The position numbers and the translations under genes are program-made. This document shows, piece by piece, positions 18,098-32,977 of a stretch of DNA of 64,000 nucleotides (the stretch's first letter is position 1; each line of letters begins with the position of its first letter). Below the pieces are notes generated by a model. The model was given only the letters and a program-made list of their open reading frames with translations, did not search any database and was not told the DNA's origin. Source of the stretch: Cytophagaceae bacterium (GTDB lineage: Bacteria > Bacteroidota > Bacteroidia > Cytophagales > Flexibacteraceae); contig CANGYH010000001.1 of NCBI GenBank assembly GCA_947458545.1, positions 620,001 through 684,000 on the forward strand. The letters run 5' to 3'.

Positions 18098-18101
18098 TGC
18101 T

Positions 18102-18338: not shown

Positions 18339-18466
18339 AGCAAGTAGGTAGAACGGTGTATGTGACACCGAACACGTTCCAAAGCTACGATGCGCTTTGG
18401 CGTTTCGTCGCCCGTGTGGGCAAAAGGTTTACGGTTCGCATGGTCTCTAGCCTCTCTGAAGTATGA
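18335..18466 (+). CDS. 43-residue basic peptide
   Basis: Linked by ATGA overlaps on both sides: it begins on the stop of the membrane protein and ends on the start of the gene at 18463. The product ('MKQVGRTVYVTPNTFQSYD', then 'ALWRFVARVGKRFTVRMVSS') is basic and could be DNA- or RNA-binding, but no family is recognised. Confidence 0.4.
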   Translation: MKQVGRTVYVTPNTFQSYDALWRFVARVGKRFTVRMVSSLSEV

Positions 18467-18768: not shown

Positions 18769-18890
18769 GCCGCCGACACCTACCCGAAGCGTAAGGGCTC
18801 TGCTGGAGAGCACCCCCCAGGAATAAGGTAGGCCCGCGCACTACTGTGCATAGGTTCTTGGCCACCTACCAAAACGGCCAACCCGGCAAA

Positions 18891-18908
18891 GGGGCACCCC
18901 GGTGCCCC
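18891..18908. promoter_or_regulatory. GC-rich palindrome upstream of rep
   Basis: GGGGCACC-CC-GGTGCCCC, a perfect 8-bp stem with a 2-base centre, in the 320-base gap before rep. The gap holds no convincing gene. It could be a terminator for the early operon (no T-tract follows) or part of the replication origin. Confidence 0.4.
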
Positions 18909-19034
18909 TGAAGCCAAAACCCCTCACAGTAGGGGCGGCCCATGCCCGAAAACTCAATAAGCGCCCCATGCGCAAGCGCCCCCATCGGGGCTATTTCCCC
19001 CATCTCATTAACCCCGGAACCGAAGAATTTGCGC

Positions 19035-19069
19035 CACTTGACCCTAGGAAGTTTAACTAGGGTCAAGTG
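19035..19069. promoter_or_regulatory. Perfect 13-bp inverted repeat before rep (candidate origin or operator)
   Basis: CACTTGACCCTAG (19035-19047) and CTAGGGTCAAGTG (19057-19069) with the loop GAAGTTTAA. It ends 22 bases before the rep start. Rolling-circle Rep proteins commonly bind or nick such hairpins close to their own gene. An autoregulatory operator is the alternative. Confidence 0.55.
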
Positions 19070-19091
19070 TACATCGGAACCTTTTTCCTCT

Positions 19092-20267
19092 ATGTACATG
19101 GAAATCGTAGACCGTATCTACACCTCTGCCTTCACCCTGGCCATTGACTGGCTAGATGTTTTCTGCTACGAAGAGCGCGAAGACCCTGCCACCAGCATTT
19201 TGCCCATCCCTTCAGAGGAGCAAAGCAGCTTTGACTATGGAGACGTAGGCCTTGTGGCACAGCCCTACGGCACCCCCTTCTATCAGGTAGCCTATCAGGT
19301 CTACGTGTACGGGGAAGAGGTGGCCACCTTGCAATGCCATCCGCGTACCCTGGGCAAGTGGAAGCCCGGTGCCGCAGCTATCAAGATGCACAATCACGTC
19401 TTGTACCGTTCCGACTGGATGGATTTACTGACGCTGATTTGCCATACCCTCAAGCTTGGTATCAACAACGTAACCCGTCTCGATATAGCCCTCGACTTTC
19501 AGACCGACGAAGATCCGCACCTGCCCGAGCTACTCAACTACTACTACAAGCAGATGCCGGGCACGTTGCAGCTGCACATGAAGGGCCGGGCCACCTTCAA
19601 CGCAAGAGATATGAACAGGGAAACAATGTGCTTTCAACAGTTCATCATTGGTTCTGCCTCGTCTGGGAAGCAAGTCAGCGTGTACAACAAGACGAAGGAG
19701 ATTGAGAAAAGCCACAAGGGGTATATAGCTGCCTTTTGGCTGGCCAATGGCCTAGACCCTCAAAGTCGTGTGTACCGTCTGGAGTTACGGCTTAAAAGCG
19801 AAGGTCTACACTGCCTTGAGGGCTTTGAGTTCACCTTGCTAGACGACCCCGCCTATCTGGCTTCCATCATCCGTACCAGCTTTGAGAGCTTCTTTGAGTT
19901 TGCAAAAGCGAACCCAGGCGACACCAACACGCGCCGTTGGGAAGAACTACAGCTATTCAACTGGGAAGCTATGGGGGCCAGTCTATTACCAAAGACCAGC
20001 GCGCCGGTTGTCAACGACTTCTACAAAGTCCGGCTCTTCTTGCACCTGGCCATAAAGCAGGCCTTGGCCACCAACGTGCACGAAAACTTAATGCGCTCAA
20101 ACCTAGAGACCGCCGTCCATCAGGTCGTTCATTATGGTGTGCAAGAGTATGCCTCAAAGCAAGCTCTAAAGCTGATCAAGAAATACCGAAAGATGTGTAA
20201 GACCCCTGACCGCATCTCATTGCTATGTCGCCTCTTTGAGGTCAACCCTCAAAGCCTGGAAGACTAG
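19092..20267 (+). CDS. Rolling-circle replication initiator (Rep_trans-like)
   Basis: A 391-residue Rep protein. It matches the pattern of the 'replication initiation factor' (Rep_trans) family: 'NNVTRLDIALDF' (metal-binding/beta-strand motif), 'KQVSVYNKTKEIEKS' with candidate nicking Tyr198, and 'SRVYRLELRLKSEG'. These proteins nick a double-strand origin and stay covalently attached, starting rolling-circle replication of plasmids and ssDNA phages. The frame is open from 18942, but the first 50 codons include the inverted repeat and have no family character; I use the ATG at 19092 (19098 also possible). An SSB gene follows 60 bases later, supporting a single-stranded intermediate. Confidence 0.8.
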   Translation: MYMEIVDRIYTSAFTLAIDWLDVFCYEEREDPATSILPIPSEEQSSFDYGDVGLVAQPYGTPFYQVAYQVYVYGEEVATLQCHPRTLGKWKPGAAAIKMHNHVLYRSDWMDLLTLICHTLKLGINNVTRLDIALDFQTDEDPHLPELLNYYYKQMPGTLQLHMKGRATFNARDMNRETMCFQQFIIGSASSGKQVSVYNKTKEIEKSHKGYIAAFWLANGLDPQSRVYRLELRLKSEGLHCLEGFEFTLLDDPAYLASIIRTSFESFFEFAKANPGDTNTRRWEELQLFNWEAMGASLLPKTSAPVVNDFYKVRLFLHLAIKQALATNVHENLMRSNLETAVHQVVHYGVQEYASKQALKLIKKYRKMCKTPDRISLLCRLFEVNPQSLED

Positions 20268-20327
20268 CCCAAGACACCCACCACTATTCAAATTCAATTT
20301 TCTCAAACCCCTTTTCTACCCTGCATT

Positions 20328-20720
20328 ATGCAGACTATCACAATCGCCGGTAACATCGGCAAAGTCAAAGTTCAAAACTCCAACGGACGGGAGTTTATCA
20401 GCTTCACGGTTGCTTGCAACGAGCGCGACAACCAAGGCAACGAAAAAACCATCTGGTATGGTTGCACCTACAACTTCGTAAAGGTGGCCGAGTACCTTAA
20501 AGCCGGAACCCGAGTTGTGTGCTCTGGCCGGTTCAACCCATCCATCTACCACGGCCAGAACGGCGCGAGCCTGGATTTGAAGGTAGCCGTCAATCAGCTT
20601 GACTTCTACAACGTCAAGAAAGACGAGGCACCCGCCGGCCATCAGCAACCTGGCGCAACAGCGCCCGATCTGCAGGACGTTCCACCGGCCCTGCCGCCCG
20701 ACGACAACACGCCCTTCTAA
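20328..20720 (+). CDS. ssb: Single-stranded DNA-binding protein
   Basis: A 130-residue SSB. The OB fold is clear: 'ITIAGNIGKVKVQNSNGREFISFTVACNERD', 'KTIWYGCTYNFVKVAEYLKAGTRVVCSGRF' and 'SLDLKVAVNQLDFY'. The tail is Pro-rich and acidic, ending 'PPDDNTPF', very like the DDxxPF tip with which bacterial SSBs recruit host replication proteins. It belongs to the element and would coat single-stranded replication intermediates or a packaged ssDNA genome. A strong terminator follows, closing the replication module. Confidence 0.93.
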   Translation: MQTITIAGNIGKVKVQNSNGREFISFTVACNERDNQGNEKTIWYGCTYNFVKVAEYLKAGTRVVCSGRFNPSIYHGQNGASLDLKVAVNQLDFYNVKKDEAPAGHQQPGATAPDLQDVPPALPPDDNTPF

Positions 20721-20740
20721 GGGCTGTTTAGGTCAAAGAA

Positions 20741-20769
20741 AAAGCCCCCTTTTGCAAGGGGGCTTTTTT
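20741..20769 (+). terminator. Rho-independent terminator after ssb
   Basis: Arms AAAGCCCCCTT and AAGGGGGCTTT, 4-base loop, then TTT. It ends the rep-ssb transcript. Confidence 0.85.
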
Positions 20770-20818
20770 GTGCCCATACAGAAGCGATATGGCAGGGATA
20801 TATATATCGACATAAAAA

Positions 20819-20877
20819 CGATTTGAGCGCGACCACGGGCAAAATATGGGCCCTCTCGAAGCGATTTGGACGCGACC
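20819..20877. repeat. Imperfect 16-bp direct repeat
   Basis: CGATTTGAGCGCGACC (20819-20834) and CGATTTGGACGCGACC (20862-20877), differing at two bases and 43 bp apart, between ssb and the DUF4248-like gene. An AT-rich run (TATATATAT) lies just left. It could be an origin iteron pair or a regulator site. Confidence 0.35.
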
Positions 20878-21075
20878 CTATTCCCATCCGTCAGGTGCGC
20901 CAAGGTGGGCAACTACTTTTTCAACTTGGGCAGGTGTCAGCAGCTTGCTTTTGTCTAAAGTCAGGTTGGGGATGCGCTTCATCCACCGCAAAAGCGTGTG
21001 CACGGTTACTCCGTATAGCTCTGCCAGGGTGGATTTAAGTAGCGGCTGCCCCTTGCGGGTAGTGCTATTTGTCAT
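20878..21075 (-). CDS. DUF4248-like helix-turn-helix protein
   Basis: A 65-residue protein: 'LLKSTLAELYGVTVHTLLRWMKRIPNL' forms a helix-turn-helix, and 'LLTPAQVEKVVAHLGAPDGWE' is the typical C-terminal helix-plus-'LG.P' ending of DUF4248-type proteins found in Bacteroidota phages and mobile elements. The frame is open to 21189, but the ATG at 21075 gives the family-sized protein. It diverges from the structural operon, with a perfect 14-bp palindrome between the two starts, so it may regulate late genes. Confidence 0.65.
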   Translation of the reverse strand: MTNSTTRKGQPLLKSTLAELYGVTVHTLLRWMKRIPNLTLDKSKLLTPAQVEKVVAHLGAPDGWE

Positions 21076-21119
21076 TAGAGCGGGGTGGTAAGCTGTAAAG
21101 ATAGCGTGAAATGTGAAGG

Positions 21120-21133
21120 GATATGTACATATC
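21120..21133. promoter_or_regulatory. Palindromic operator candidate
   Basis: GATATGTACATATC is a perfect 14-bp palindrome in the intergenic region between the DUF4248-like regulator and the start of the long rightward operon. Its place suggests control of the late promoter. Confidence 0.5.
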
Positions 21134-21187
21134 TGAACAGCGCTCTTGGCCAGCGGAAAAAGATTTGGGCTCCTATTCGCTGAAGCC

Positions 21188-21472
21188 ATGCCCGTTGCAG
21201 TACCCTACACCCCTCCGCAGTCTGTTGCTATAGTCGCACCTGCTGCACAGCGCACCCCGGTGCCATCTGCCCAAGGTCTGCTGAACTCTACCAAAGAGGC
21301 GGGCACTTCAGCACCTAAAGAAAAGAGATGGTTGGGCGATCAACGATACCCAGCCAACCGCCAAGAACGCCGCACCGGATACCTGCCAAAAGGTACGCCT
21401 CTGCCCCAACGTCTGGCCTTTCTGCAAAACACGCTTCATTCTTGCTTTTGCCGCCCTATTGAGGGCCGCTAG
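21188..21472 (+). CDS. First protein of the structural operon
   Basis: A 94-residue, Pro- and basic-rich protein with no recognised motif ('PYTPPQSVAIVAPAAQRTPVPSAQ', then 'KEKRWLGDQRYPANRQERRTGYLPKG'). The frame extends to 21146, but the ATG at 21188 gives a sensible start. It lies 112 bases from the divergent regulator and 10 bases before the next gene. A small virion or scaffolding protein is possible; nothing in the sequence proves it. Confidence 0.45.
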   Translation: MPVAVPYTPPQSVAIVAPAAQRTPVPSAQGLLNSTKEAGTSAPKEKRWLGDQRYPANRQERRTGYLPKGTPLPQRLAFLQNTLHSCFCRPIEGR

Positions 21473-21482
21473 GCCAAAGCCT

Positions 21483-22046
21483 ATGTCTTTTCAACTTCTC
21501 GCCCTAGCCGCTGGAGGCCTTATTGCTTTCAGAGCATTACGTAAAGGGGTAAATGCAACTTCTATCAATGCCGAGATAGTAGGCATTGAAGCCCTAAATC
21601 CGGCTGGCCTAACCGAGTTTGTCGCAAGGGTGCGTGTGCGCTTCACCAACCCTACAGGCTCTCAATACCGCGTGCGTAACGCCTTCTTTCAGTTGCTTAA
21701 AAACGGTAGTCAGTTTGGCACCGTCAACAGCACCGAACCTGTTGAGATACTGCCTACCTCTACCAAAGAGGCCATCTTTTCAACACGTCTTAGCACTCTG
21801 GACATGTTAAGCCTAGGTGGCGATTTGTGGCGCACAGGTTCAACCAAGGTGGACACCAAAGGGCGTATTGAGTTCTTTGACTTCCCAGCCGTGCCAGTAG
21901 GTTCTTCATTCAATTGGCAGCTACCCGGCTGGCTTACCAGCCTTCTTAACATGGGTGGGCGCACCAATGATAAGACCCAAAAAAAAGGCAAGCAAGGCCG
22001 CAAAGGTCAAGGCCTCAACTACGGTACTAGCTCTTACAACGCATAG
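21483..22046 (+). CDS. Membrane-anchored LEA14/WHy-like beta-sandwich protein
   Basis: A 187-residue protein. Residues 1-20 are a membrane anchor ('FQLLALAAGGLIAFRALRKG'). The central part, 'INAEIVGIEALNPAGLTEFVARVRVRFTNPTGSQYRVRN', with 'EPVEILPTSTKEAIFSTRLS', has the alternating strands and 'NP' turns of LEA14-like (WHy) beta-sandwich domains. The C-terminal tail is Lys/Gly-rich. It probably sits on or in a membrane as a virion component. The stop TAG overlaps the GTG start of the next gene. Confidence 0.5.
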   Translation: MSFQLLALAAGGLIAFRALRKGVNATSINAEIVGIEALNPAGLTEFVARVRVRFTNPTGSQYRVRNAFFQLLKNGSQFGTVNSTEPVEILPTSTKEAIFSTRLSTLDMLSLGGDLWRTGSTKVDTKGRIEFFDFPAVPVGSSFNWQLPGWLTSLLNMGGRTNDKTQKKGKQGRKGQGLNYGTSSYNA

Positions 22047-23569
22047 TGGTAACTCTTGCCCAAGCGCGCGCGCTAATGCCTGCCGCAACCGGTCAGCGCA
22101 CACTAATCAAGGCTGACGGCATCACGTCTGAAATCGTGCAAGCCGTCTTGTCAACCTTCAGGCAAAGCCACAGCCAGGCCTTTCCGCTATCCCAGCTACT
22201 CAAAGGTGTAAATGCCCAGGACACGGCCCGGCGCGTCTTTGACTTAATAAAACACAACATCCGCTACGTGCTTGATACGGCAGGTCAGCAGGATATACCC
22301 ACCCCGTCCCGTGTCGTTGGCCAGGGGTTTTCAGACTGCAAAGGGTACGCCATCCTGGCCGTGTCCTTGCTCAAAGGGGCAGGCGTTGACGGTGGCTTTC
22401 GCTTCGTTAGCTACAAAAAGTCCGACACACGCCCGACCCACGTCTATGCCTTCGCAAAGCTCTCGAATGGACAGACCCTCACCATAGACCCGTGTATGCC
22501 GGGCTTTAACCAAGAGCAAACCTATCAGCACAAACAAGACTACCCCATGTCAGCTATCTACGCCATCAGTGGGCCAGACGACGAGCTAGAACGTATCGCC
22601 TCGCCCAACTTAGACCCTGAAATGCACGGCCCAATGGCCGACCTGCAACTTATGCGCGAAGCCGCTGCCTTGGAAGGGGCAATAGCTTCAACCATCAGCG
22701 GCCCCGATGCCATCGCCTTGCAACGCGCTTCAGAAGAGGCCGTGGCTGATTACGATGCTGCTATACGAGCCTTGGCCGAAGGCAACCTAGACCGCCTTGA
22801 GTACCTGGGTGAAGGCATCATTCAACGCGATGCTGCCGCTGCCGTTGGCCGCCGCCGGCGCAACACCAAAACCCGCCGTGCGCGTCGAGGCAAGTTGATC
22901 AAGAATGTAGCCAGAGCCACAAAGCGCGCAGGCCGTGGGGCTCTAAGGTTTGCAAAGCGTGCCGTTACCGCACCCGTCCGACTGGCCGCCACAGCTGCAT
23001 TGCGTCTGCTTGGCCGCCAGGTAGCGCCTGCCTTCCTTTACATTTTCATCACCAACCCAAAGACGGTAGAGGCCTTGCCCGAGAAGGTGAAGCGCAAGCG
23101 CAACCGGCAGCTAGCCATCATGCGTGTCTTTACCCAAAAGCTAGGGGTATCTGAAGGCCGCTTCCGCACCATCGTGGCAAACGGCATCAAACGCAAGATG
23201 CGCCAAACGCCGCAGCAGGTTCTTTCCCGTGTGGTTACCGGGCCAATCAGTGGCATTGGCGTTGCACCTGCTGCCCTTGCCTTTCTGCCGCAGTTGCTAG
23301 AGCTTATTCAAAAGATTCTAGGTGGCGGCAAAGCCCCTATGGGCAAAGACGATGGTGCTGACCCTGAAGGCGACTTCTTTTCTGCCACCCCCAGGCAAAG
23401 GCGCATGGTTCGTGCCTCAATGCAACGTTCAACGCCGCAAGACCGAGCCGAAGAGCCTACGACCTATGAAGAGGAAAGCGAGCTTCAAACCCGCCAGATG
23501 CGTTCGGTTGAAGCCGTAGAGCAAGAGCCCGAAGACACCCCCGAAGAAGCGCCGCTTCCCGACAACTGA
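22046..23569 (+). CDS. Transglutaminase-fold (papain-like) protein with basic and acidic tails
   Basis: A 507-residue protein. Residues 60-150 hold a transglutaminase-like cysteine protease core with the triad Cys98 ('GFSDCKGYA'), His132 ('PTHVYAF') and Asp148 ('TLTIDPC'). A very basic stretch follows (about 270-315: 'RRRRNTKTRRARRGKLIKN', then 'RATKRAGRGALRFAKRA') and could bind nucleic acid. Next comes a helical region and an acidic C-terminus. Roles could be maturation protease, internal nucleoprotein or entry enzyme; the combination is unusual. The GTG start at 22046 overlaps the previous TAG. It precedes a run of small membrane proteins and the candidate capsid genes. Confidence 0.65.
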   Translation: MVTLAQARALMPAATGQRTLIKADGITSEIVQAVLSTFRQSHSQAFPLSQLLKGVNAQDTARRVFDLIKHNIRYVLDTAGQQDIPTPSRVVGQGFSDCKGYAILAVSLLKGAGVDGGFRFVSYKKSDTRPTHVYAFAKLSNGQTLTIDPCMPGFNQEQTYQHKQDYPMSAIYAISGPDDELERIASPNLDPEMHGPMADLQLMREAAALEGAIASTISGPDAIALQRASEEAVADYDAAIRALAEGNLDRLEYLGEGIIQRDAAAAVGRRRRNTKTRRARRGKLIKNVARATKRAGRGALRFAKRAVTAPVRLAATAALRLLGRQVAPAFLYIFITNPKTVEALPEKVKRKRNRQLAIMRVFTQKLGVSEGRFRTIVANGIKRKMRQTPQQVLSRVVTGPISGIGVAPAALAFLPQLLELIQKILGGGKAPMGKDDGADPEGDFFSATPRQRRMVRASMQRSTPQDRAEEPTTYEEESELQTRQMRSVEAVEQEPEDTPEEAPLPDN

Positions 23570-23599
23570 AAGCGACAAGGCTCCGGGGAGACCCAAAGG

Positions 23600-23776
23600 A
23601 TGCAATCACGCATGGCAGCCGATGGGCCAGACGGCTCCGACCCCGACCTAAGCGCCCAAAGCTCAAAGACTACTGAAGACGGCCAAAACGAGGGCGGCCA
23701 AGCTTCAGCTACCGGCCTGAATAAGCTCCTGATTCCAGGGCTGATAGGGTTCGGGATATACAAAGCCCTCTCTTAA
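23600..23776 (+). CDS. 58-residue membrane protein
   Basis: Starts at ATG 23600 ('MQSRMAADGPDGSDPDLSAQ'; a second ATG at 23612 is possible). An acidic, Ser/Gln-rich N-terminus leads to one hydrophobic C-terminal segment ('LLIPGLIGFGIYKALS'). It fills the gap between the transglutaminase-like gene and the coiled-coil gene. A single-pass virion membrane protein is plausible. Confidence 0.5.
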   Translation: MQSRMAADGPDGSDPDLSAQSSKTTEDGQNEGGQASATGLNKLLIPGLIGFGIYKALS

Positions 23777-23791
23777 CCTGTAAACGCCCCT

Positions 23792-23965
23792 ATGGCAAAA
23801 TCACAGATCGGAAGCCTTAGCTCCAGACTCCGCAAGGAAGAGGCTAAACAGCGCAAGCTGGAAAAAACGCTGGAGAAAAAGAAAGCGGTAGAGGCCATGC
23901 AGAAAAAGCTGGAGACCGCCAAAAAGAGCACCGCCACCCTTCGCAAGAAGGTCTCTGGCCGGTAG
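23792..23965 (+). CDS. 57-residue Lys-rich coiled-coil protein
   Basis: Starts at ATG 23792 and runs to TAG at 23963. The product is a single charged helix: 'LSSRLRKEEAKQRKLEKTLE', 'KKKAVEAMQKKLETAKKS', ending 'TLRKKVSGR'. It is strongly basic and heptad-like, so it may oligomerise or bind nucleic acid. The opposite strand also has an open frame here, but the operon runs rightward. Confidence 0.5.
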   Translation: MAKSQIGSLSSRLRKEEAKQRKLEKTLEKKKAVEAMQKKLETAKKSTATLRKKVSGR

Positions 23966-23992
23966 GCTAAACCCTAGCACACCCCACAAAAA

Positions 23993-24430
23993 GTGAAAAA
24001 GCTAGACTTTTCTAAAATCGGCAAACGGGCTGCTGGCCTGGCTGTCGGTACGGCCCTTTCGGGCTTTTTGAACAAGACCTTGGAGAAGACCAACGCCCAG
24101 GGTCAGCCGATGATCAACCAAGAGATGCGAGGCCTGATTATGGTCGGAGCCGGTGCATTTCTACCAGGGCTCATTAGCAAAAAGCAAGACGATATGATTG
24201 AGGCCGTAGGTGCCGGTATCATGTCAAAAGGTGTCGACACGCTCTTGCGCCGGTTTGTCCCCAGCATGGTATCAGGCATTGACGGCACCGATGAAGGTGT
24301 TTTTGGTGCCTACGATTCGCCTGAAAGCTTGGGCGAAGTAAACGGCGTGTATGGCACTGATGACGGGGTATTTGGCTCCGATGAAGGTGTCTTCGGCGCT
24401 GAAGAACCAAGTTCAATCAACGTCATGTAG
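23993..24430 (+). CDS. Hydrophobic protein with GVFG repeats
   Basis: A 145-residue protein beginning at GTG 23993 ('MKKLDFSKIGKRAAGLAVGTALSGFLN'). It has two hydrophobic stretches (about 12-25 and 48-62), then a C-terminal tail with a short repeat: 'TDEGVFGAYDSPE', 'GEVNGVYGTDDGVFGSDEGVFGAEE'. The motif D-[ED/DD]-G-V-F-G occurs three times. The tail could bind the capsid, as short tandem motifs do in scaffold or minor membrane proteins; this is speculative. It immediately precedes the main capsid candidate. Confidence 0.5.
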   Translation: MKKLDFSKIGKRAAGLAVGTALSGFLNKTLEKTNAQGQPMINQEMRGLIMVGAGAFLPGLISKKQDDMIEAVGAGIMSKGVDTLLRRFVPSMVSGIDGTDEGVFGAYDSPESLGEVNGVYGTDDGVFGSDEGVFGAEEPSSINVM

Positions 24431-24474
24431 GCACCGGCCTACTCCCTATCAACTCCCATTCACAAACCCAAAAA

Positions 24475-25170
24475 GTGAAAAACAACTTCCCCATTTCTGA
24501 AGACAAGGCAAGGAACGTCTACAATGCACTAACCTTGCCAGTCAACCAAGGTGGCCGCTTTGGCTACGCAAAAGAGAAGGTACAGGCTAGCTTCTTGCGT
24601 CAGGAACTTCCGCTGCGCAACAACCAAAGCACCTATGCCTTTGACTTTCAGCCCAAAAACGGCTCAAAGCCTACCGAGCGTCTGTTGCAGCGCACGGACA
24701 ACTTCCACATGCTAGGCCTTGGCCTGCTGCTGGCCGTTGAAAACAAAAACAAACCCGGCTCTGCGCCTCTGCTGGCCTACCCCCAGCTTTTTGAAGTGCA
24801 GAAGCTGATCGCTTCAGGTACTGCCATCGGTGGCATCGCAGACCCAGACGTGCGCGACCTGAATGCCATCTACAACGGCATCTTGGCCATCAAGCAAGTC
24901 AGCACCGAGGTAGTATCAGACGTAGATACCCGCCGCTTCTATGTTGTGCCTAGCACGCAAGAAAACGGTATCAACGACCGCAGTGAGGCCAACTATGCCG
25001 ATGGCATCATCAGCATTGAACCCCAGCCAATCTTGGTTGGCAAGGACAGCAATGCGCTCACTGTTACAATCCCTACCTGGCCAGGCATCGCGCTCCAGTC
25101 TAACCGGGCCGACTGGGAAATCAACCTGGTAGCCTACGCTGTTGGCTACCGGATTTTGGGTGTGAACTAA
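24475..25170 (+). CDS. Candidate major capsid protein (beta-rich)
   Basis: A 231-residue protein starting at GTG 24475. After a helical N-terminus ('EDKARNVYNALTLPV') come segments typical of jelly-roll viral proteins: 'ASFLRQELPLRNNQSTYAFDF', 'ERLLQRTDNFHMLGLGLLLAV', 'DTRRFYVVPSTQ', and a final 'WEINLVAYAVGYRILGVN'. It lies in the middle of the structural operon and is followed by a strong hairpin, a common way to raise capsid mRNA over downstream genes. No homologue can be searched here. It might be one of two single-jelly-roll capsid proteins with the 25683 product, or a reduced double jelly roll. Moderate to low confidence in the exact role. Confidence 0.5.
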   Translation: MKNNFPISEDKARNVYNALTLPVNQGGRFGYAKEKVQASFLRQELPLRNNQSTYAFDFQPKNGSKPTERLLQRTDNFHMLGLGLLLAVENKNKPGSAPLLAYPQLFEVQKLIASGTAIGGIADPDVRDLNAIYNGILAIKQVSTEVVSDVDTRRFYVVPSTQENGINDRSEANYADGIISIEPQPILVGKDSNALTVTIPTWPGIALQSNRADWEINLVAYAVGYRILGVN

Positions 25171-25201
25171 GCGCGCCACCACCCCCGCGCCCTGTAGTAA
25201 T

Positions 25202-25238
25202 GGCCCCGCCCGCCCTTGGTTTGGTGTGGGGCGGGGCC
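25202..25238 (+). terminator. Strong hairpin after the candidate capsid gene
   Basis: Arms GGCCCCGCCC and GGGCGGGGCC with a 17-base loop, then TTCTACTTT. It lies inside the operon, so it probably acts as a partial terminator or an mRNA stabiliser. Confidence 0.65.
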
Positions 25239-25273
25239 TTCTACTTTAACCCACCTGCCAACACTCAACTTAT

Positions 25274-25681
25274 ATGGCACTCACAACCCGCGCCGCTACG
25301 GTAATCGCCAACATCAAGGCACTCACGCAAGCAGAGATGGCAGTTGCATCGGCGGCCCTTTTTCGCAACCCCAACCGACTGTTTAGGCAGTTTACAGCTA
25401 CCTTCTTAGCCGCCAAAATAGCCTGGAGGCCCAGCACATACGCTAACCTCTTTCGCACAACAGACGGCAACACGATTGCAAACACCCATCCTGTTGCCAA
25501 GATTTTTCGCACCAACCTGACAAGCTTTGGTCAGGAGGACGCAGATAGCCTGGTAGAGGCCCTCTATAAAGACAAAGCCAACCGCAATGTGCTTTGGGGC
25601 CTACGCCGTGGCAACGCTGCCCTTGCCAATAGCACCGCCCAGGTGCCCATCAATCAACCTCCTGTAGTCGCAGCTAGCTAG
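25274..25681 (+). CDS. Helical structural-operon protein
   Basis: A 135-residue protein with an Ala-rich helical N-terminus ('RAATVIANIKALTQAEMAVASAALFRNPNRL'), a central basic/aromatic region and a low-complexity Ala/Pro C-terminus. No family is recognised. It lies between the two beta-rich capsid candidates and, with the second, between two strong hairpins, so it may be produced at a similar level. One base separates its stop from the next start. Confidence 0.5.
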   Translation: MALTTRAATVIANIKALTQAEMAVASAALFRNPNRLFRQFTATFLAAKIAWRPSTYANLFRTTDGNTIANTHPVAKIFRTNLTSFGQEDADSLVEALYKDKANRNVLWGLRRGNAALANSTAQVPINQPPVVAAS

Positions 25682-25682
25682 T

Positions 25683-26072
25683 ATGCAGATACGCCCCATC
25701 ACCCGCACCACGTCTGTTGAAGTAGTCTTCGACGGCGTTCGCAATCAGTATGTATTTCCAGAAATGGCCGAGCTACGAGGCAAGACCATCTACGGTGTGC
25801 ATGCTGACTTTGACAGCACCCGCACGCCCAACAATCAAACGGTGCATGGCACCGCTATGCAGTCAGGTGGCTTTTTGACCTTGGTCAATCAAGACAACAA
25901 AGCCATGATAGACAATGTGCCGCTTGCCCTCTTGCGCCAAATGCGCGACCAAGGCAACCTGACACCTTTTGAGGTTCAAAATGTGTCCTTCAACCGAAGC
26001 TTTATCAAGGTGGCTGATACTTCTATCATCCAAACAGGTAGGGCATTGGCCTTTACAATCGTTCACAATTAA
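25683..26072 (+). CDS. Candidate single-jelly-roll virion protein
   Basis: A 129-residue, almost entirely beta protein: 'SVEVVFDGVRNQYVFPEMAE', 'LRGKTIYGVHADFDS', 'GGFLTLVNQDNKAMIDNVPL', 'LLRQMRDQGNLTPFEVQNV', 'NRSFIKVADTS', 'ALAFTIVHN'. The order 'FPE...LRGKTI', 'FLTLVN', 'I-x-N-x-P-L', 'RSFIKV' recalls a pattern I associate with small virion proteins of tailless Bacteroidota phages; I cannot verify this here. It would suit a second coat protein or a penton/spike base. A 12-bp hairpin terminator follows directly. Confidence 0.45.
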   Translation: MQIRPITRTTSVEVVFDGVRNQYVFPEMAELRGKTIYGVHADFDSTRTPNNQTVHGTAMQSGGFLTLVNQDNKAMIDNVPLALLRQMRDQGNLTPFEVQNVSFNRSFIKVADTSIIQTGRALAFTIVHN

Positions 26073-26073
26073 T

Positions 26074-26102
26074 AGGTGGGGCGCTTACGCAGCGCCCCAC
26101 CT
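26074..26102 (+). terminator. Strong hairpin terminator
   Basis: Perfect 12-bp arms AGGTGGGGCGCT and AGCGCCCCACCT with a 5-base loop. There is only a weak T-tract (TTAA). It closes the capsid-candidate segment; downstream genes must rely on read-through or another promoter. Confidence 0.7.
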
Positions 26103-26122
26103 TAACAATCTCAAAACCCAAA

Positions 26123-26863
26123 ATGGAACCCGTAATAGCCATTGAGAGCCACTTTGAAAATGCCAACGCGGCATTTTTCAAAATCCGTGGGGCAGGCATC
26201 GAACTGCGAAGCCCAGAAGTGGAAGGCATGACACCTAACAACCTTGCTGGACACTTCGGCAAGATGTATGAAACCCTGCCAGGTGGCAGGCAATACGAGG
26301 TGATTTTTTGGGAAAAGCCTAACGGTGGCAAATCCGCTCAAAAGTGGTCGTTCTGGAAGCCTGCCGACCCAAACACCGTGGCGGCCATATCTGGCCCTGG
26401 CACTCAAAGCTCTGAAATCATGAACCTGCATTTGAAGATGCGTGATATGGAGCACCAACAAGAGCTAGAGCGCATCAGGCGCGAGCACGAAGCCAAGACG
26501 GCCAAAAAAGAGGAAAGCGGCTTCTCTGAAGCTGGCTTGCTTTCGGCCATCGGCAAGGTGGCCGAAGTGCTTGATAAAGTCGCTGCCCTACGTGGCTCTG
26601 CGGTATCTGGCCCAGCCAAGCCGCGGCAGCCCCAGACGCGCCCCCAGGCGTTGCCGGCGCAACCCCAACCTGGCTATGTGGCTACCACTCAAGACCCAGA
26701 CGAGGCAGACGGTTTAGGCCAAGTGGCTGACCACCTAAGCGCCTTGCAAGACGCGCTAGGCCCTGAAGAGCTTATTGGGGTGCTGGCCACCTTAGCTGAA
26801 GCCGGACGGCGCGACCCAGACAATCTAAGAGAGAAAATCTCCCTTGCCAAAAACCTTCTGTAG
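26123..26863 (+). CDS. Structural-operon protein with coiled coil
   Basis: A 246-residue protein. The first 85 residues are compact and mixed alpha/beta ('VIAIESHFENANAAFFKIRGAGIELRSPE', 'YEVIFWEKPNG'). A charged coiled coil follows ('LHLKMRDMEHQQELERIRRE', 'HEAKTAKKEES'), then a Pro/Gln-rich linker and a helical C-terminus. The GGKS in 'PNGGKSAQKW' is not a Walker A motif because the upstream Gly and spacing are wrong. Function is unknown; the shape suggests an adaptor or scaffold. Confidence 0.5.
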   Translation: MEPVIAIESHFENANAAFFKIRGAGIELRSPEVEGMTPNNLAGHFGKMYETLPGGRQYEVIFWEKPNGGKSAQKWSFWKPADPNTVAAISGPGTQSSEIMNLHLKMRDMEHQQELERIRREHEAKTAKKEESGFSEAGLLSAIGKVAEVLDKVAALRGSAVSGPAKPRQPQTRPQALPAQPQPGYVATTQDPDEADGLGQVADHLSALQDALGPEELIGVLATLAEAGRRDPDNLREKISLAKNLL

Positions 26864-26866
26864 GCT

Positions 26867-27628
26867 ATGTACTACGTTCTTGACCCTACCAAATCAGGGC
26901 CTACCCAAAAGGGTAAGCCTGCCCCAGTGCCACCGGGCGGGGTTGCCAACAATCAATTTGCTGGTATAACCATTGCGCCCATGGCCAACCCTGGCTTTTT
27001 TAACGCGCGCCGCGAACCTAACCTTAATAGCCAAGTTGCCATCCAAGTAAAAAAAGGCACCCGAGCCACCGGCATCATCGTGCCTGAAGGCAGCCGCTTT
27101 TGGATTCAGCTAGATACGCCTGCTGGTATAGCTTACGTGCGTAGCGATGTAGCTAGTTGGCCAGGTAAAAAGAACAGCAAAACCCCAACCGCCACAGGCG
27201 GGAAAGAAAGTGGAGAGGCTGTAAAAAAATGGAGGCCCGATCTTAAAGACCGCCCGGTCGGCTGGCTGGCTGCTGCCCCAACCGTCAATGTGCGTAAAGG
27301 GCCCAGCGTGTCAGCTGAAGTGCTACGTGTAGCAACCAACCCCGGCTTTGGGTATCAACGCTTGGGCAGCCTTACTGGCCAAACCGTAGAGGTCGGGAAA
27401 ACGCTGTGGCTAGAGGTTGAGCAACGTGGCCAAGTCGGCTGGGTGCGCTCTGATGTGGTGTGGTGGAAAGGCAGCCGCACCATTACCGAACGTGTGGTAG
27501 AGCCTGTAAAAGAGGCTGCCAAAGACGTTGCCGAGGCTACCAAGTCAGCCTTCAACTGGGTAACCAACGCTGCCCTAATCGTGGGTGGAGGCTACCTCCT
27601 TATCAAGCTTTCAGAAAACAGCAAGTAA
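26867..27628 (+). CDS. Two-SH3b-domain protein with C-terminal membrane anchor
   Basis: A 253-residue protein with two bacterial SH3-like domains: about 35-95 ('FFNARREPNLNSQVAIQVKKG', 'RFWIQLDTPAGIAYVRSDVA') and about 132-200 ('VNVRKGPSVSAEVLRV', 'LWLEVEQRGQVGWVRSDVV'). The C-terminus carries one membrane helix ('AALIVGGGYLLIKLSENSK'). SH3b domains bind peptidoglycan, so the protein may help dock the virion or lysis machinery to the cell wall. It directly precedes the lytic-enzyme-like gene. Confidence 0.65.
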   Translation: MYYVLDPTKSGPTQKGKPAPVPPGGVANNQFAGITIAPMANPGFFNARREPNLNSQVAIQVKKGTRATGIIVPEGSRFWIQLDTPAGIAYVRSDVASWPGKKNSKTPTATGGKESGEAVKKWRPDLKDRPVGWLAAAPTVNVRKGPSVSAEVLRVATNPGFGYQRLGSLTGQTVEVGKTLWLEVEQRGQVGWVRSDVVWWKGSRTITERVVEPVKEAAKDVAEATKSAFNWVTNAALIVGGGYLLIKLSENSK

Positions 27629-27630
27629 TC

Positions 27631-28146
27631 ATGGCTAGAACCTTCTTAGGCCGCCGAGACGTGCCCCTTGGCATACGCAACAACAACCCCGGCAACCTGC
27701 GCCCCGGCGACAAATGGCAGGGCCGTACAGAGGCAGGGCAGGCCGGTGGCTTTGTCCAGTTCCAAAACATGGCTTGGGGCATCCGGGCCATGCTCATCGA
27801 CCTATCGAACAAAATCCGCAAGGGGCGCAATACAGTGCGCCGGATTATCTCCGCATGGGCACCGCCCACCGAAAACAACACGGATGCCTATATCCGCTTT
27901 GTAGCCCGGTCTATGGGTGTAGATGCCGATGCTGCTTTGACGGCAAGCAAAGGCACCCTCTTTGCCTTGGCCTCCGCTATTGCCATCAAAGAGAATGGCA
28001 AGAAGTGGGCTCTGCCCTCTGAAGAACTCGAAGCCGGCTGGAACCTTATGCCCAGCCGCACCAAAAAGGTAGTGGCCGCCGCAGGTGGCAGCGCAGCCCT
28101 GTTTTTTATAGGGCTTGGCATTTACTTCTATACCCGTATGTCCTAA
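27631..28146 (+). CDS. Virion-associated lytic/'GIRNNNPGN' protein
   Basis: A 171-residue protein beginning at ATG 27631. The N-terminal 'PLGIRNNNPGNLRPGDKWQG', then 'GFVQFQNMAWGIRAM', 'ISAWAPPTENNTDAYIRFV' are the hallmarks of phage 'structural protein/transglycosylase-like' proteins often annotated as peptidoglycan-active virion proteins. The C-terminus has a membrane helix ('AAAGGSAALFFIGLGIYFYT'), so the enzyme would sit in a membrane, as expected for a virus that punctures the cell wall by membrane fusion or tube formation. It precedes the next gene with a TAATG overlap. Confidence 0.75.
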   Translation: MARTFLGRRDVPLGIRNNNPGNLRPGDKWQGRTEAGQAGGFVQFQNMAWGIRAMLIDLSNKIRKGRNTVRRIISAWAPPTENNTDAYIRFVARSMGVDADAALTASKGTLFALASAIAIKENGKKWALPSEELEAGWNLMPSRTKKVVAAAGGSAALFFIGLGIYFYTRMS

Positions 28147-28397
28147 TGGCCAAAGCCCGCATATCGACCCAACAGGTCAACACCCCAGGCCGGTACCGCT
28201 TCTCTGACGAGTGCATCTCTGTGGCCTTCATCAACACTGGCAACGCCCTTGCCTACGTGGCCGGTGTCCCCGTTCCTGCCGGTGGCTCAATAGCCTATGC
28301 CAGTCAGCAATCAGGCGTTTTTATCGGTGATGATGTTGCCGTCTCTTTTGGAGCCGGAAGCCTCCCCATGTTGCACGTAACAGAATTGAGCCTATGA
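28146..28397 (+). CDS. Small beta-rich virion-protein candidate
   Basis: An 83-residue protein made of short strands ('TPGRYRFSDECISVAFINTGN', 'ALAYVAGVPVPAGGSIAYA', 'VFIGDDVAVSFG'). It resembles small phage fibre- or spike-associated domains with the pattern 'NTG-x-A-x-V-x-G-V-P-V-x-A-G', but no family is certain. Its stop overlaps the ATG of the next gene. Confidence 0.45.
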   Translation: MAKARISTQQVNTPGRYRFSDECISVAFINTGNALAYVAGVPVPAGGSIAYASQQSGVFIGDDVAVSFGAGSLPMLHVTELSL

Positions 28398-29065
28398 TTC
28401 AGTTTGCCACGCCTGTTAGCGTAAGAGAAAGCCCTATCCCTGACCTTGCGCAAGTGCTAAGTCAAGGTAGTGAGGCTAGTACTTCTCTATCAATCACTGA
28501 CGAGGCCGGTAATTTATCGGAAGTGTCAGACTTCTATCTAGCCCAGCAGATGATTGATAATGATAAAACTTATTCGTCTATTATAAGAGGCAAAAGCCAA
28601 TCCTATCAGGTCTCCGTAGATGGTCAGATAGATGGATCGCTAGTAATAGCGCCCGCAGAGTTCGATCTTATCGAAAGCCCTTACCCAAGCCAAGATGTAA
28701 CCTACCACAAGCTTACACTGCCATTTACAACCGGCACCCTGGCGATTAGAGAGACCTTGCCAATTGTCCCTCGTCTGGTACTGACAGTTGATCCCAATCT
28801 AATTGGGGTAGTTCAAAACACGCACAATATTGACCTTACCGGTATGACTATCGTCAACCCGCAAGTAGGAAATTATGCCATTCATATTCCTTCAATCTCT
28901 ACAGTGTTAAGCTTTACTTTAACTTGTCTAGAATCGCAGCCATTTTTCTTTACCCGCGTCTCTACAGGGGTTATAGATTTTAACTGCTACGACCCACTAA
29001 ATGGCTTTCAACCAACCGACAGTTGGTCTCGGGTGCAAATCATCATCGACTGTATACCCCTCTAA
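28394..29065 (+). CDS. AT-richer beta protein, candidate spike
   Basis: A 223-residue protein rich in Ser, Thr and Ile, with many predicted strands ('SLSITDEAGNLSEVSDFYL', 'SYQVSVDGQIDGSLVIAP', 'LSFTLTCLESQPFFFTRVS'). The DNA here is visibly more AT-rich than its neighbours, and codon choice differs (for example TTA and ATA appear). Such local composition is typical of receptor-binding proteins that are exchanged between phages. It starts with an ATGA overlap on the preceding gene. The family is not recognised. Confidence 0.45.
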   Translation: MIQFATPVSVRESPIPDLAQVLSQGSEASTSLSITDEAGNLSEVSDFYLAQQMIDNDKTYSSIIRGKSQSYQVSVDGQIDGSLVIAPAEFDLIESPYPSQDVTYHKLTLPFTTGTLAIRETLPIVPRLVLTVDPNLIGVVQNTHNIDLTGMTIVNPQVGNYAIHIPSISTVLSFTLTCLESQPFFFTRVSTGVIDFNCYDPLNGFQPTDSWSRVQIIIDCIPL

Positions 29066-29067
29066 AC

Positions 29068-29304
29068 ATGCACCACCACCAACCCATACTGCAAGCAACT
29101 GGCTTCAGTACGGCGGTATCTACGCTGTTCTATTGGTCTATTGCCCATAATCTACATGTAGTGCCCGTCTCTGCTTTCCTCTCTGCCGTGGTGGGCTTCA
29201 TTACGGCCAAAGGGCTAGGGGCCACATGGGACTATTTCGCCCAGCGCATCACCAAAGCAGACGGTGCCATTATCTACCGAGCCAACCGCCCAATTAAGCC
29301 ATGA
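29068..29304 (+). CDS. Small membrane protein, holin-like
   Basis: A 78-residue protein starting at ATG 29068 ('MHHHQPILQATGFSTAVSTL'). Two hydrophobic segments ('FSTAVSTLFYWSIAHNL' and 'VPVSAFLSAVVGFITAKGLG') and a basic C-terminus ('RITKADGAIIYRANRPIKP') fit a small holin-like protein. The stop TGA overlaps the ATG of the next gene. Confidence 0.45.
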   Translation: MHHHQPILQATGFSTAVSTLFYWSIAHNLHVVPVSAFLSAVVGFITAKGLGATWDYFAQRITKADGAIIYRANRPIKP

Positions 29305-29609
29305 AGCCCCGCAATCCCCGTACCCGTCGTGTGCGCAAGGCCAAGGATATGACCTTGAAGGAACGCTACAACGCGCCAACTCCCCGGCTCTTCAGGCGCA
29401 TAGCTCTGGCCGGGGAGGTTGCTACCTGGCTGGCCGGTGTGGCCGGGGCCGTGGTGGCCATTGCAGGCCTGCCCGTGACTGGCCCCATTGCCATTGCCGC
29501 CGGTGTGCTGGCCATTACCGGCCAGACGGCGCATAAGGTGGCCAAGCTTGTTGTAGATGAAGACCATCTACAGCCCCAAGCCCAACCCGTGCCCGAGCCT
29601 GCCCCATGA
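29301..29609 (+). CDS. Small membrane protein with basic N-terminus
   Basis: A 102-residue protein. The first 33 residues are highly basic ('MKPRNPRTRRVRKAKDMTLK'). A hydrophobic hairpin follows ('EVATWLAGVAGAVVAIAGLPV' region, then 'IAIAAGVLAITGQTA'). The tail is Pro/Gln/Glu-rich. A holin, spanin-like or virion membrane protein is possible. It is coupled to both neighbours by 4-base ATGA overlaps. Confidence 0.45.
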   Translation: MKPRNPRTRRVRKAKDMTLKERYNAPTPRLFRRIALAGEVATWLAGVAGAVVAIAGLPVTGPIAIAAGVLAITGQTAHKVAKLVVDEDHLQPQAQPVPEPAP

Positions 29610-31450
29610 CGCGCAAGCAAATCTCTGCCCTTACTTACGATCAGTTTTTAGCCCGCTTCCGTGGGCTTTCCTATTTCACCCAGGTCAGGTTGCAGGGTGA
29701 AGCTGGCTTTTCCATAGCATACGACGACTGGCAGGCCATGCGCCGCGCCAAAGCCATTGCTCTTGGCTTAGACCCAGATGCCTCTACCGAGCTTGTTATC
29801 TACTATGCACTAGGGGGCAAAGACGGTATAGCGGCAGTTGGCAAACCCAGCATTCGCCTGGAGTTTGCTACCAACGAAGACCTCTTGACCTTTCAAGAGC
29901 GCATGGCCACCGTAGAAGTGGATACTATCCCTACCAAGGCATTGCCCAGGTATGATGATGAAACCAAGCCGCGCCGCACCCGCAAGCAAGCCGCTACCCC
30001 GCCTGCCCAAGCTTATGCCGGCGTAGAGCTTTTGCCGATTGATGACGTGCACGAGGCAAGGGGCCTGTTTCAGAACCGGGCCGAAGCCTTCAGCTCTGAA
30101 AGCGTAGAGCGCATCTTGGCAGACGTGGAAGCCGGGCAATTCCGGTGGGCCATGTTTGACCCCATCACCGTTTGGCGCAATCCTGAAGACGGCAGGTACT
30201 ACATCTTGAGTGGCCACTCACGCACGGAAGCCTTCAGACGGCTGGCCGCCCAGGGCGCCACAGCCGAAGGCCGAACCTTTGACCAAATACCTGTGAAGGT
30301 GGCGGACGTTGATTTGGAAGAGGCCAAGCGCCTGGCCCGCACGTCCAACAACCTAAGCACCAAAGAGACCGACACCGAGCGCGCCGCCTACTACCGTGCC
30401 AAGCTGGAAGAGGGCACCCCGAAAAAAGAGGTGGAGGCCGAAGCCAAAAAGCTGGAGGGCCGCAATGCCAACTACATCTTAAACCTAGCCGCCCTTGCCC
30501 CCACGTCTCAGGCCTTCACCCTTGCCCAGGCCATGGAAGGGGCAGCCGAGAGCCAAAACGCCGTGCTGGCCCGCGCCCTGGCTGATTGGATAGGGGAAGG
30601 GGTGCGCCGGTTCAAACTCACACGCGCCCAGCAGGACGAAGCCCATGCCTATCTATCTAGGCAGTATGGCAAGGCCTACACAAGCAAAGGGCAATGGCTA
30701 GAGAGGCTTGATAACGTCATTACCAAGCAACGCTTGCTAGGTGAAGAGGGGCAGGCCTTGAACCTTGAAAACCGCACCATGAAGTCTGTTGACGAAATGG
30801 ACTGGGATGCGACTTTGGAGGATTTACGGCAGCAACTCAAAGAGGCCGAAAAGAACCTGAAAACAGCGCGCGAAGGGCTGATTCGTAATGGCTACAGCGG
30901 TGAAAAGCTAGACCACTACCTTTCAGAGCACGAGGGCCGGATACGGGCCATCAGCAGAAAGATTGTAGAGCACATGGATACCAAAGGGGCCATGCGCGAA
31001 GCGGCCCGGTCGCAGCTGGCCATCTTTGGCCTAAATCGATTAGAAGATTTTGTTGCCAAGGCACTTGCTAGAAAAGAAGGCAATAAGTTGTATCTAGACC
31101 TAGGCCCAGTCAATGAAGAGCTAATTGATGCATTCAAAAAGTATTGGCAAAGGGATGTAAAAGACTTCACCCTTGTGTTTGATGAATCATCGGTTAGGCA
31201 TATTCACAAGGAACATGGCAACCCAGAAGCCGAAATCAGCAGAGGCAACATGCCTTTCACATTTAAAGATTATCTCGCTTTACCCAAAGCTATCAATAAT
31301 AGTCTTGTAATCCTACCCGGAGACGATCTATCAAAAGTTCAGATTATATCTGAATCAGAAGGATACTTGTATATCATACTAGTCGAAAGAGCTCAACGAA
31401 AAAAGCTTGCCATTAACACCGCCTATAAAAAGAAAACCCGGCCTAGATAG
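29606..31450 (+). CDS. Polyvalent-type protein: ParB-like domain plus C-terminal PBECR nuclease
   Basis: A 614-residue multidomain protein. About 136-260 is ParB/Srx-like: 'LLPIDDVHEARGLFQNR', 'FDPITVWRNPEDGRYYILSG', 'HSRTEAFRRLAAQG', 'VKVADVDLEEAKRLARTSN'. A long helical region follows with coiled coil (about 395-440). The last ~110 residues match the phage Barnase-EndoU-ColicinE5/D-RelE-like nuclease pattern: 'FTLVFDESSVRHIHKEHG', 'FTFKDYLALPKAINNS', 'SEGYLYIILVE', 'KKLAINTAYKKKT'. Proteins joining ParB-like and PBECR domains are described as polyvalent proteins that enter the new host with phage or plasmid DNA. The DNA of the C-terminal domain is AT-richer than the rest, suggesting module exchange. 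Confidence 0.75.
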   Translation: MTRKQISALTYDQFLARFRGLSYFTQVRLQGEAGFSIAYDDWQAMRRAKAIALGLDPDASTELVIYYALGGKDGIAAVGKPSIRLEFATNEDLLTFQERMATVEVDTIPTKALPRYDDETKPRRTRKQAATPPAQAYAGVELLPIDDVHEARGLFQNRAEAFSSESVERILADVEAGQFRWAMFDPITVWRNPEDGRYYILSGHSRTEAFRRLAAQGATAEGRTFDQIPVKVADVDLEEAKRLARTSNNLSTKETDTERAAYYRAKLEEGTPKKEVEAEAKKLEGRNANYILNLAALAPTSQAFTLAQAMEGAAESQNAVLARALADWIGEGVRRFKLTRAQQDEAHAYLSRQYGKAYTSKGQWLERLDNVITKQRLLGEEGQALNLENRTMKSVDEMDWDATLEDLRQQLKEAEKNLKTAREGLIRNGYSGEKLDHYLSEHEGRIRAISRKIVEHMDTKGAMREAARSQLAIFGLNRLEDFVAKALARKEGNKLYLDLGPVNEELIDAFKKYWQRDVKDFTLVFDESSVRHIHKEHGNPEAEISRGNMPFTFKDYLALPKAINNSLVILPGDDLSKVQIISESEGYLYIILVERAQRKKLAINTAYKKKTRPR

Positions 31451-31458
31451 CCGGGTTT
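31434..31458 (+). terminator. Terminator at the end of the late operon
   Basis: Arms AAACCCGGC and GCCGGGTTT, 7-base loop, overlapping the stop codon of the polyvalent protein and followed by TTTACCCTTT. Confidence 0.75.
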
Positions 31459-31557
31459 ACCCTTTAACTAAGTGCTTAGGTTGCTTTCACCTTGCTGACG
31501 TACTAAACGTGCTAGTCCCAAGGGCAATGCAAATAACGCATTATAAATAGGAAAGTT

Positions 31558-31586
31558 GCAAGCCCCACCCCACCGGTGGGGCTTGC
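31558..31586. terminator. Bidirectional hairpin between late operon and integrase
   Basis: Perfect 12-bp arms GCAAGCCCCACC and GGTGGGGCTTGC around CCACC. It lies in the 236-base gap that separates the convergent late operon and integrase. The rest of that gap holds no gene. Confidence 0.6.
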
Positions 31587-31604
31587 TTGTATCCTTCAAA
31601 ATCT

Positions 31605-31625
31605 AACAATTTGTGTCAAATTGTT
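31605..31625. promoter_or_regulatory. AT-rich perfect inverted repeat
   Basis: AACAATTTG-TGT-CAAATTGTT, 9-bp arms, in an AT-rich stretch 62 bases beyond the integrase stop. It is followed by TGATTTTATG, so it could be a weak terminator; a regulator site is the alternative. Confidence 0.4.
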
Positions 31626-31686
31626 TGATTTTATGATAGGTATCTCAAGCAAACTAAAGCACGCTATCGCTCAAAATGGCGCAAAA

Positions 31687-32829: not shown

Positions 32830-32831
32830 CC

Positions 32832-32953: not shown

Positions 32954-32977
32954 GCTGATTATTGGCACACAACGGCT

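Follow-up and report, generated by a model that had tools for sequence, protein, structure and literature searches.

Bacterial tailless phages with single-jelly-roll (SJR) capsid proteins are represented by very few isolates, the Thermus phages and the Salisaeta phage SSIP-1. SSIP-1 is described as a virus with two major capsid proteins (MCPs) (PMC6356626, PMC4958249). HHIV-2, a two-MCP virus of the Sphaerolipoviridae, has haloarchaeal hosts and a 30-kb linear genome. Its VP4 has 232 residues and its VP7 has 185, and the genes follow the order VP12, VP7, and VP4, VP12 being named the major membrane protein (PMC5332951). In SPV1 (Portogloboviridae), hexamers of the SJR protein VP4 and pentamers of the SJR protein VP10 are arranged around a membrane (PMC8459092), and this family is described without a packaging ATPase (PMC8812541). 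The lipid-containing Flavobacterium phages phiCjT23 and FLiP, with single-stranded DNA (ssDNA), have double-jelly-roll MCPs. That of phiCjT23 holds two barrels in 239 residues (PMC9719478), and FLiP reportedly has no packaging ATPase (PMC5894146). Among the 2025 changes of the International Committee on Taxonomy of Viruses (ICTV), Singelaviria was created for single vertical jelly-roll viruses, and Salisaeta is not named there (PMC12714852). An integrated element of a Cytophagaceae bacterium is compared here with these viruses. It lies in contig CANGYH010000001.1, positions 620,001 to 684,000 (64,000 nucleotides, called the window), and carries two genes, p231 and p129, whose products are predicted to be capsid proteins.

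The element covers 18,007 bp (18.0 kb; 14987-32993, both repeats included) and has a tyrosine integrase and a tRNA-Ser gene. The p231/p129 pair probably provides the core of the capsid in a temperate icosahedral phage without a tail, which is integrated at this tRNA-Ser gene. A capsid function for the pair overall is probable. From the predicted structures, p231 would be an SJR shell protein that builds the capsomers, and the smaller p129 would be a penton that plugs the fivefold corners. This assignment is considered slightly better than even. The virion would probably have an internal membrane.

The original prediction had named two beta-rich capsid candidates, each followed by a strong hairpin, and both open reading frames (ORFs) and both perfect hairpins are present. 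The p231 gene encodes 231 residues (24475-25170, + strand, GTG start) and p129 encodes 129 residues (25683-26072, +). A hairpin past p231 (25202-25238, +) begins 31 nucleotides after the stop and has a perfect 10-bp stem with a loop of 17. The hairpin past p129 (26074-26102, +) begins 1 nucleotide after the stop and has a perfect 12-bp stem with a loop of 5. A small gene that was absent from the original prediction, p135 (25274-25681, +), sits between p231 and p129, and the first hairpin thus falls between p231 and p135. No usable family match was found for p135 in Pfam or PHROGs. At its position, some relatives of the element have an unrelated-looking ORF, and others have a gap of 48-89 nucleotides.

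Relatives of p231 were identified with a profile at E ≤ 1e-5. They occur in 7 of 291 genomes in a sample of the order (the window counted, and G034 included in the query profile) and in 2 further genomes in a class sample of 395; a phylum sample of 395 genomes gave none besides the window itself. Matches of 37-64 residues at E 0.0016-0.0064 (G131, G171, G292, G320, and G597) were not counted. The carriers include Hymenobacter sp. CA2-7, Hymenobacter sp. ASUV-10, and a Cytophagales metagenome-assembled genome. In all nine elements, a p231 relative is followed by a p129 relative in the same order and on the same strand, 48-512 nucleotides apart. Compared with the window proteins, the p231 relatives are 19-36% identical and the p129 relatives 16-22%. 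The p129 profile found the same seven order genomes with no orphan, all seven being in that profile by construction. Clustered relatives of a transglutaminase-like protein are also present in all nine elements (in L015 as a contig-end fragment). In the Hymenobacter CA2-7 element (L012:5736-7622), this protein is split into adjacent ORFs of 197 and 430 residues. In L013, it is fused to an N-terminus like that of p195, another protein of the element.

The genes for replication and lysis vary among the elements. Rep_trans is found in the window and L014, a below-cutoff Rep_1 match together with a Toprim primase in L013, and VapE in L017. In other elements, the enzymes near the module are of the glucosaminidase, M23, or GH108 type. 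The nine elements thus combine a conserved capsid core with replication and lysis modules that are exchanged, a pattern already described among small viruses without tails (PMC5894146). The same variation, together with the split transglutaminase-like gene of L012, would also suit a decayed or non-viral element, such as an integrative plasmid that encodes surface proteins rich in beta structure. This is very improbable. The reading frames of p231 and p129 remain open in each of the nine elements at low identity, and relatives of SSIP-1 structural proteins are present.

The p231/p129 family escapes sequence searches. A tblastn search of 50,697 phage records, HHIV-2 included, left p231 without a match at E ≤ 1, and p129 had one chance match of 24 residues (E 0.9) in these records and none in plasmids. 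Phage and plasmid records gave nothing for p231 or for its L013 relative. NCBIfam, Pfam, and PHROGs offered no usable family for either p231 or p129; in PHROGs scans of nine members per family, the single match was that of one p231 relative to a family whose function is unknown (E 0.0066). IMG/VR scans with p231, two p231 alignments, and one transglutaminase alignment gave no relatives, and this absence is weak evidence because the degenerate-peptide method is insensitive at such divergence. In the open-licence literature, no paper was found on Hymenobacter jelly-roll prophages or on capsids of tailless Cytophagales prophages, and none on an element of this kind was among the papers listed by wider searches. 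It appears that the viruses with p231 and p129 form a small, undescribed family.

AlphaFold was run on p231 and p129 only, with four-row alignments. Structure prediction and structural searches had been proposed with the original prediction, and their outcome is uneven: p129 gave a confident model with capsid and non-capsid neighbours, and p231 gave a weak model whose neighbours are dominated by capsid proteins. The low-confidence p231 model has approximately nine strands and an N-terminal helix. Virus capsid proteins, many of them mutually close, make up 49 of the best 50 rows in a Foldseek search of PDB (E 0.002-0.023); the remaining row is an Ena fibre. VIA-align placed capsid, scaffold, or cement proteins in 42 of 50 rows, some of them, such as D13 and STMV, more than once; the remaining eight are HDT, PHM, and Kex2 chains. 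The best row is the SPMV coat protein (Z 7.7, root-mean-square deviation 3.1, 123 residues aligned). Among the best 50 BFVD rows, 22 are named, of which 17 are capsid or coat proteins and the rest include proteins of plant viruses with other functions; the other 28 are unnamed. One unnamed BFVD protein, I1ZBH9, has 211 residues and template modelling (TM) scores of 0.48/0.52, and the next query TM is 0.35. Its length equals that of SSIP-1 gp46 and of ORF35. Judged by its accession series, I1ZBH9 may be an SSIP-1 protein; it was not used as evidence.

The p129 model has a predicted local distance difference test score (pLDDT) of 82.4 and a predicted TM score (pTM) of 0.77. In VIA-align, capsid, scaffold, or cement proteins from HHIV-2, PRD1 (P3), STIV, SPV1, plant viruses, and KHP40 account for 23 of its 50 rows. 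A family that is missing from the VIA-align rows is not thereby excluded. Of the capsid rows, 6h82_b reaches the highest TM (TM 0.47/0.46, Z 6.2, root-mean-square deviation 3.3, 105 residues aligned), for which Foldseek gave an E of just 0.30 at rank 23. This chain is HHIV-2 gene 22, the penton (PMC6414509). The VP7 chains of HHIV-2 are less similar, with TM 0.30 for 6h82_D, 0.29 for 6h82_E, and 0.27 for 6h82_I, which is taken for VP7 by its length. The HCIV-1 chain 6h9c_I (167 residues, identity unchecked) gave Z 5.1. PDB matches of the p129 profile to WD-40 proteins were discarded, since the targets are repeat proteins and none of the stretches passed by itself. In Foldseek, p129 matched the KHP40 cement protein best (E 0.015), which would suit accessory virion proteins such as a cement, spike, or fibre. 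The capsid protein would then be encoded by another of the operon genes, which are uncharacterised. Such a role for the pair is improbable, since shell proteins dominate the structural neighbours of p231 and the pair is kept with the transglutaminase-like protein in all nine elements, a wider conservation than that of the remaining small proteins.

The hairpins had been expected to raise the expression of each capsid gene over the genes downstream. In RNA folding, the p231 hairpin has -32.8 kcal/mol (z -3.9) and the p129 hairpin -25.3 kcal/mol (z -6.6), and neither was equalled in 200 dinucleotide shuffles. In the 64-kb window, there are 15 perfect stems of at least 10 bp versus a mean of 1.75 in eight first-order Markov resamples, and 10 of at least 12 bp versus 0.125. 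With strong hairpins over-represented throughout the window, the presence of a hairpin is weak evidence, and more weight falls on its recurrence in relatives. A perfect stem of at least 8 bp follows p231 in seven of the nine elements. Of the other two, L017 shows a GC stem of 5 bp together with a T run, and L013 has no stem of at least 7 bp. The region after the p231 stop was ranked against those of the other called same-strand genes within 8 kb; the ranks use 60 first-order Markov resamples each and greedy gene calls and are approximate. It is among the top two in seven of nine elements versus 1.09 expected (random-rank p 1.5e-6). L013 ranks first without a real stem, and when it is set to the median, p becomes 8.6e-5. 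The rank is 4 of 19 in the window and 7 of 14 in L017. For p129, the same test placed the region among the top two in three of nine elements (p 0.10), and an intergenic hairpin past p129 is present in the window and in L015 only, one of eight relatives. The expression idea can thus be kept for p231, whose hairpin recurs across relatives, and not for p129. Transcripts that end or are processed past p231 in the majority of elements would suit a protein that is needed in large excess over p129. The p231 hairpin could serve as a partial terminator or 3'-end stabiliser. In this way, p231, which would be needed in hundreds of copies, could be produced at a higher level than the penton, membrane, and lysis proteins encoded downstream.

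Two arrangements had been offered for the pair in the original prediction, a two-protein SJR capsid as in Sphaerolipoviridae and a coat plus penton. The second fits better. The p129 model is nearer to the HHIV-2 penton than to VP7, and the recurrent hairpin lies past p231 only, between both genes and not past each, and therefore coat plus penton is favoured over two co-major capsid proteins. In the Sphaerolipoviridae-type arrangement, p231 and p129 would form mixed pseudo-hexameric capsomers like VP4 and VP7, and the penton would be a separate protein. This is doubtful, although it has several points in its favour. The two proteins are together in all nine elements, the order p145-p231-p129 resembles the VP12-VP7-VP4 order of HHIV-2, rows for SPV1 and HHIV-2 VP7 are among the p129 matches, and the transglutaminase-like structural protein is shared with SSIP-1, to which two MCPs are ascribed. 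However, p129 is smaller than VP7, and no packaging ATPase was recognised in the element, whereas Sphaerolipoviridae and Helvetiavirae have one of the FtsK/HerA type. No sequence kinship of their MCPs to p231 or p129 was found with tblastn.

Several results weigh against an SJR coat plus penton. The p231 model is poor (pLDDT 54.4, pTM 0.57), and at such a score it gives no ground for setting aside a two-MCP capsid or another barrel in p231. The query TM is only 0.15-0.30 in its best 50 PDB rows, neither model has a Foldseek match in PDB that reaches E 0.001, and all Z values are below 8, which according to the warning of the tool may reflect just a common arrangement. In VIA-align, 27 of 50 p129 rows are non-capsid proteins that tie with the capsid rows: Ena fibres first (Z 6.8), seipin, GOLD domains, TasA, and ligand-gated channels. 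Neither p231 nor p129 has sequence similarity to known capsid proteins in phage records, profile comparisons, or PDB profiles. HHIV-2 VP4, one of two MCPs, is about as long as p231. To our knowledge, no particle is known for any of the nine elements, which would also suit a decayed or non-viral element. The jelly-roll and capsid reading is nevertheless supported by the structural neighbours of both models, by the pairing in nine of nine elements, and by the lack of tail and terminase families in the scans. The kinship of neighbouring genes with the membrane phage SSIP-1 and the lipid-containing ssDNA phage phiCjT23 also supports p231 as shell protein and p129 as penton.

The transglutaminase-like protein (507 residues, 22046-23569, +; PF04473/PF01841) matched only SSIP-1 in the phage records with tblastn (two copies, one record). 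The match is to gp34, which the record annotates as structural, with 34% identity over 97 residues (E 2e-7). Another protein, p614 (29606-31450, +), has a ParB-like domain and a PBECR3 nuclease-like C-terminus. It is related to SSIP-1 gp43, a structural protein of 2319 residues with a ParB domain (E 1.9e-34 in a small target set), and is possibly a polyvalent protein that is delivered with the DNA. SSIP-1 differs in its genome of 43.8 kb and in its capsid candidates, gp45 and gp46 (210 and 211 residues), which were chosen by size and structural annotation; compared with them, both the p231 and the p129 family gave an hhalign probability of 0.3% (two-row target profile).

The replication genes point to other phages. 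The element possesses a putative rolling-circle replication initiator, Rep_trans (441 residues, 18942-20267, +; PF02486 E 2e-8), and a single-strand DNA-binding protein (SSB; 130 residues, 20328-20720, +; Pfam SSB E 2e-9, phrog_44 E 1.1e-12). Rep matched 12 of the 50,697 phage records in tblastn, phiCjT23 and 11 Cellulophaga phage records, and three of these Cellulophaga phages are ssDNA phages (PMC9719478). With phmmer, phiCjT23 relatives were found for Rep (E 5.9e-11) and for a transglycosylase-like lytic protein with a hydrophobic C-terminal segment (27631-28146, +; phrog_873 E 1.6e-44), which is related to gp10 (E 4.5e-24). The latter is not diagnostic because 789 phage records match it; those among the matches listed are, judged by name, tailed phages or unannotated records. 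With gp34 and gp43 kinship on one side, Rep kinship on the other, and p231 and p129 without credible matches, the element thus appears, from its genes, to be a mosaic of SSIP-1-type virion genes, flavobacterial ssDNA-phage replication genes, and its own capsid pair.

The phiCjT23 kinship of Rep and the lytic enzyme would also be compatible with p231 as a two-barrel MCP like those of phiCjT23 and FLiP. The phiCjT23 MCP shows that two barrels fit in a protein of nearly this length, and no ATPase was recognised in the element, as reported for FLiP. This reading is quite improbable. The approximately nine strands of p231 suffice for one barrel in the low-confidence model, and hhalign gave a probability of 0.1% for p231 against the phiCjT23 MCP. 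The FLiP MCP was outside the eight best FLiP proteins, the best of which was another protein of 336 residues (3.4%). The prophages differ in their sites, phiCjT23-like prophages being integrated at dif by Xer (PMC9719478) and the element at tRNA-Ser beside a tyrosine integrase. An element of this kind would be replicated by its rolling-circle initiator with SSB, and these two genes are compatible with a circular ssDNA virion genome as in the Finnlakeviridae/phiCjT23 group. From 16001 to 30000, GC skew is mostly negative: of the seven 2-kb bins, six have values of -0.07 to -0.11 and one has -0.02. AT skew is mostly positive there. Outside the element, GC skew is near zero in 15 kb leftward and approximately 20 kb rightward; some bins past 54 kb are also negative. 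The strand bias of the element would fit past single-stranded replication or packaging.

No Walker-A pattern was found in element ORFs of at least 60 residues, and no Pfam or PHROGs ATPase was found among 20 proteins scanned. The pattern failed on an AAA_25 protein of a relative, so a diverged ATPase could escape it and absence is likely rather than firm. That protein is encoded downstream in the G439 element (L028:9011-10081; PF13481 E 3.3e-8). SSIP-1 gp40 has a Walker-A pattern, and chance-looking matches were seen in a few ORFs of relatives and in one of FLiP. With no ATPase recognisable, packaging may proceed without a phage-encoded motor.

The Portogloboviridae plan is the closest to the capsid that is proposed from the predicted parts of the element. 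SPV1 chains are among the structural rows of both p231 and p129. SPV1 proteins were absent from the PDB profile searches with p231 and p129, the sole sequence comparison made. The hosts differ, since Portogloboviridae have an archaeal host (Saccharolobus) and the p231/p129 relatives are in bacteria (Hymenobacter and Cytophagales). A bacterial counterpart of this plan can be proposed: a rolling-circle, ATPase-less, and perhaps ssDNA temperate phage with one vertical SJR shell protein, a related SJR penton, and a replication module shared with flavobacterial ssDNA phages. As a whole, this proposal is rather unlikely. If true, it would represent the kind of capsid that has been proposed to precede the duplication behind two-MCP viruses. 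The nine-member family occurs in an order with culturable Hymenobacter, which makes it tractable for asking if two-MCP capsids came from an ancestor with one shell protein and if DNA is packaged in such capsids without a phage ATPase.

Tailed phages (Caudoviricetes) have terminase, portal, and tail genes. None of these families was found among 20 window proteins scanned with Pfam and PHROGs (a few ORFs of under 100 residues were left out), with domain-level tail and head matches of the lytic enzyme as the sole exception. The element is not placed in any family: Sphaerolipoviridae, Portogloboviridae, SSIP-1-like phages, and Caudoviricetes each differ from it in a tested feature, and on the double jelly roll of Finnlakeviridae there are the approximately nine strands of a weak p231 model and the lack of an hhalign signal to either MCP.

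The element has several further genes. The p145 gene (23993-24430, +) adjoins p231 upstream and has clustered relatives in seven of nine elements. Its product is a candidate membrane-associated or minor virion protein, at the place of the membrane-protein gene that precedes the row of capsid genes in HHIV-2. It has no segment above the hydropathy cut-off. A transmembrane-like stretch is present in five of 21 proteins tested. The C-terminus of p145 contains a 26-nucleotide repeat in three copies (24284-24399) that encodes an acidic glycine-rich motif, shortly 5' of p231. Upstream of the transglutaminase-like gene, p195 (21459-22046, +) is weakly LEA_2-like (PF03168 E 3.8e-4, below cutoff) and has relatives in other elements. 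The gene after p129, p246 (26123-26863, +), has relatives at the same position in some elements, and it is followed by an SH3-domain protein of 253 residues (26867-27628, +; PF08239 E 4e-8). Near the left end of the element, an ORF of 513 residues (16470-18011) had only a weak PHROGs match, of unknown function, and no Pfam, NCBIfam, or PDB match. It is perhaps cargo or involved in host recognition.

The tyrosine integrase (31687-32829, - strand) was identified by PF00589 (E 6.9e-11) and phrog_1 (E 1.7e-25). From 16-bp direct repeats, we infer the limits of the element. The left repeat, attL, is at 14987-15002, and the right repeat, attR, is at 32978-32993 and overlaps the 3' end of tRNA-Ser (32981-33069, -). 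No other exact repeat of at least 13 bp is shared by 32781-33150 with the 32.7 kb leftward. An 11-bp perfect hairpin (14994-15022) overlaps attL. The perfect hairpins at 32927-32953, near attR, and at 20739-20768 resemble one another.

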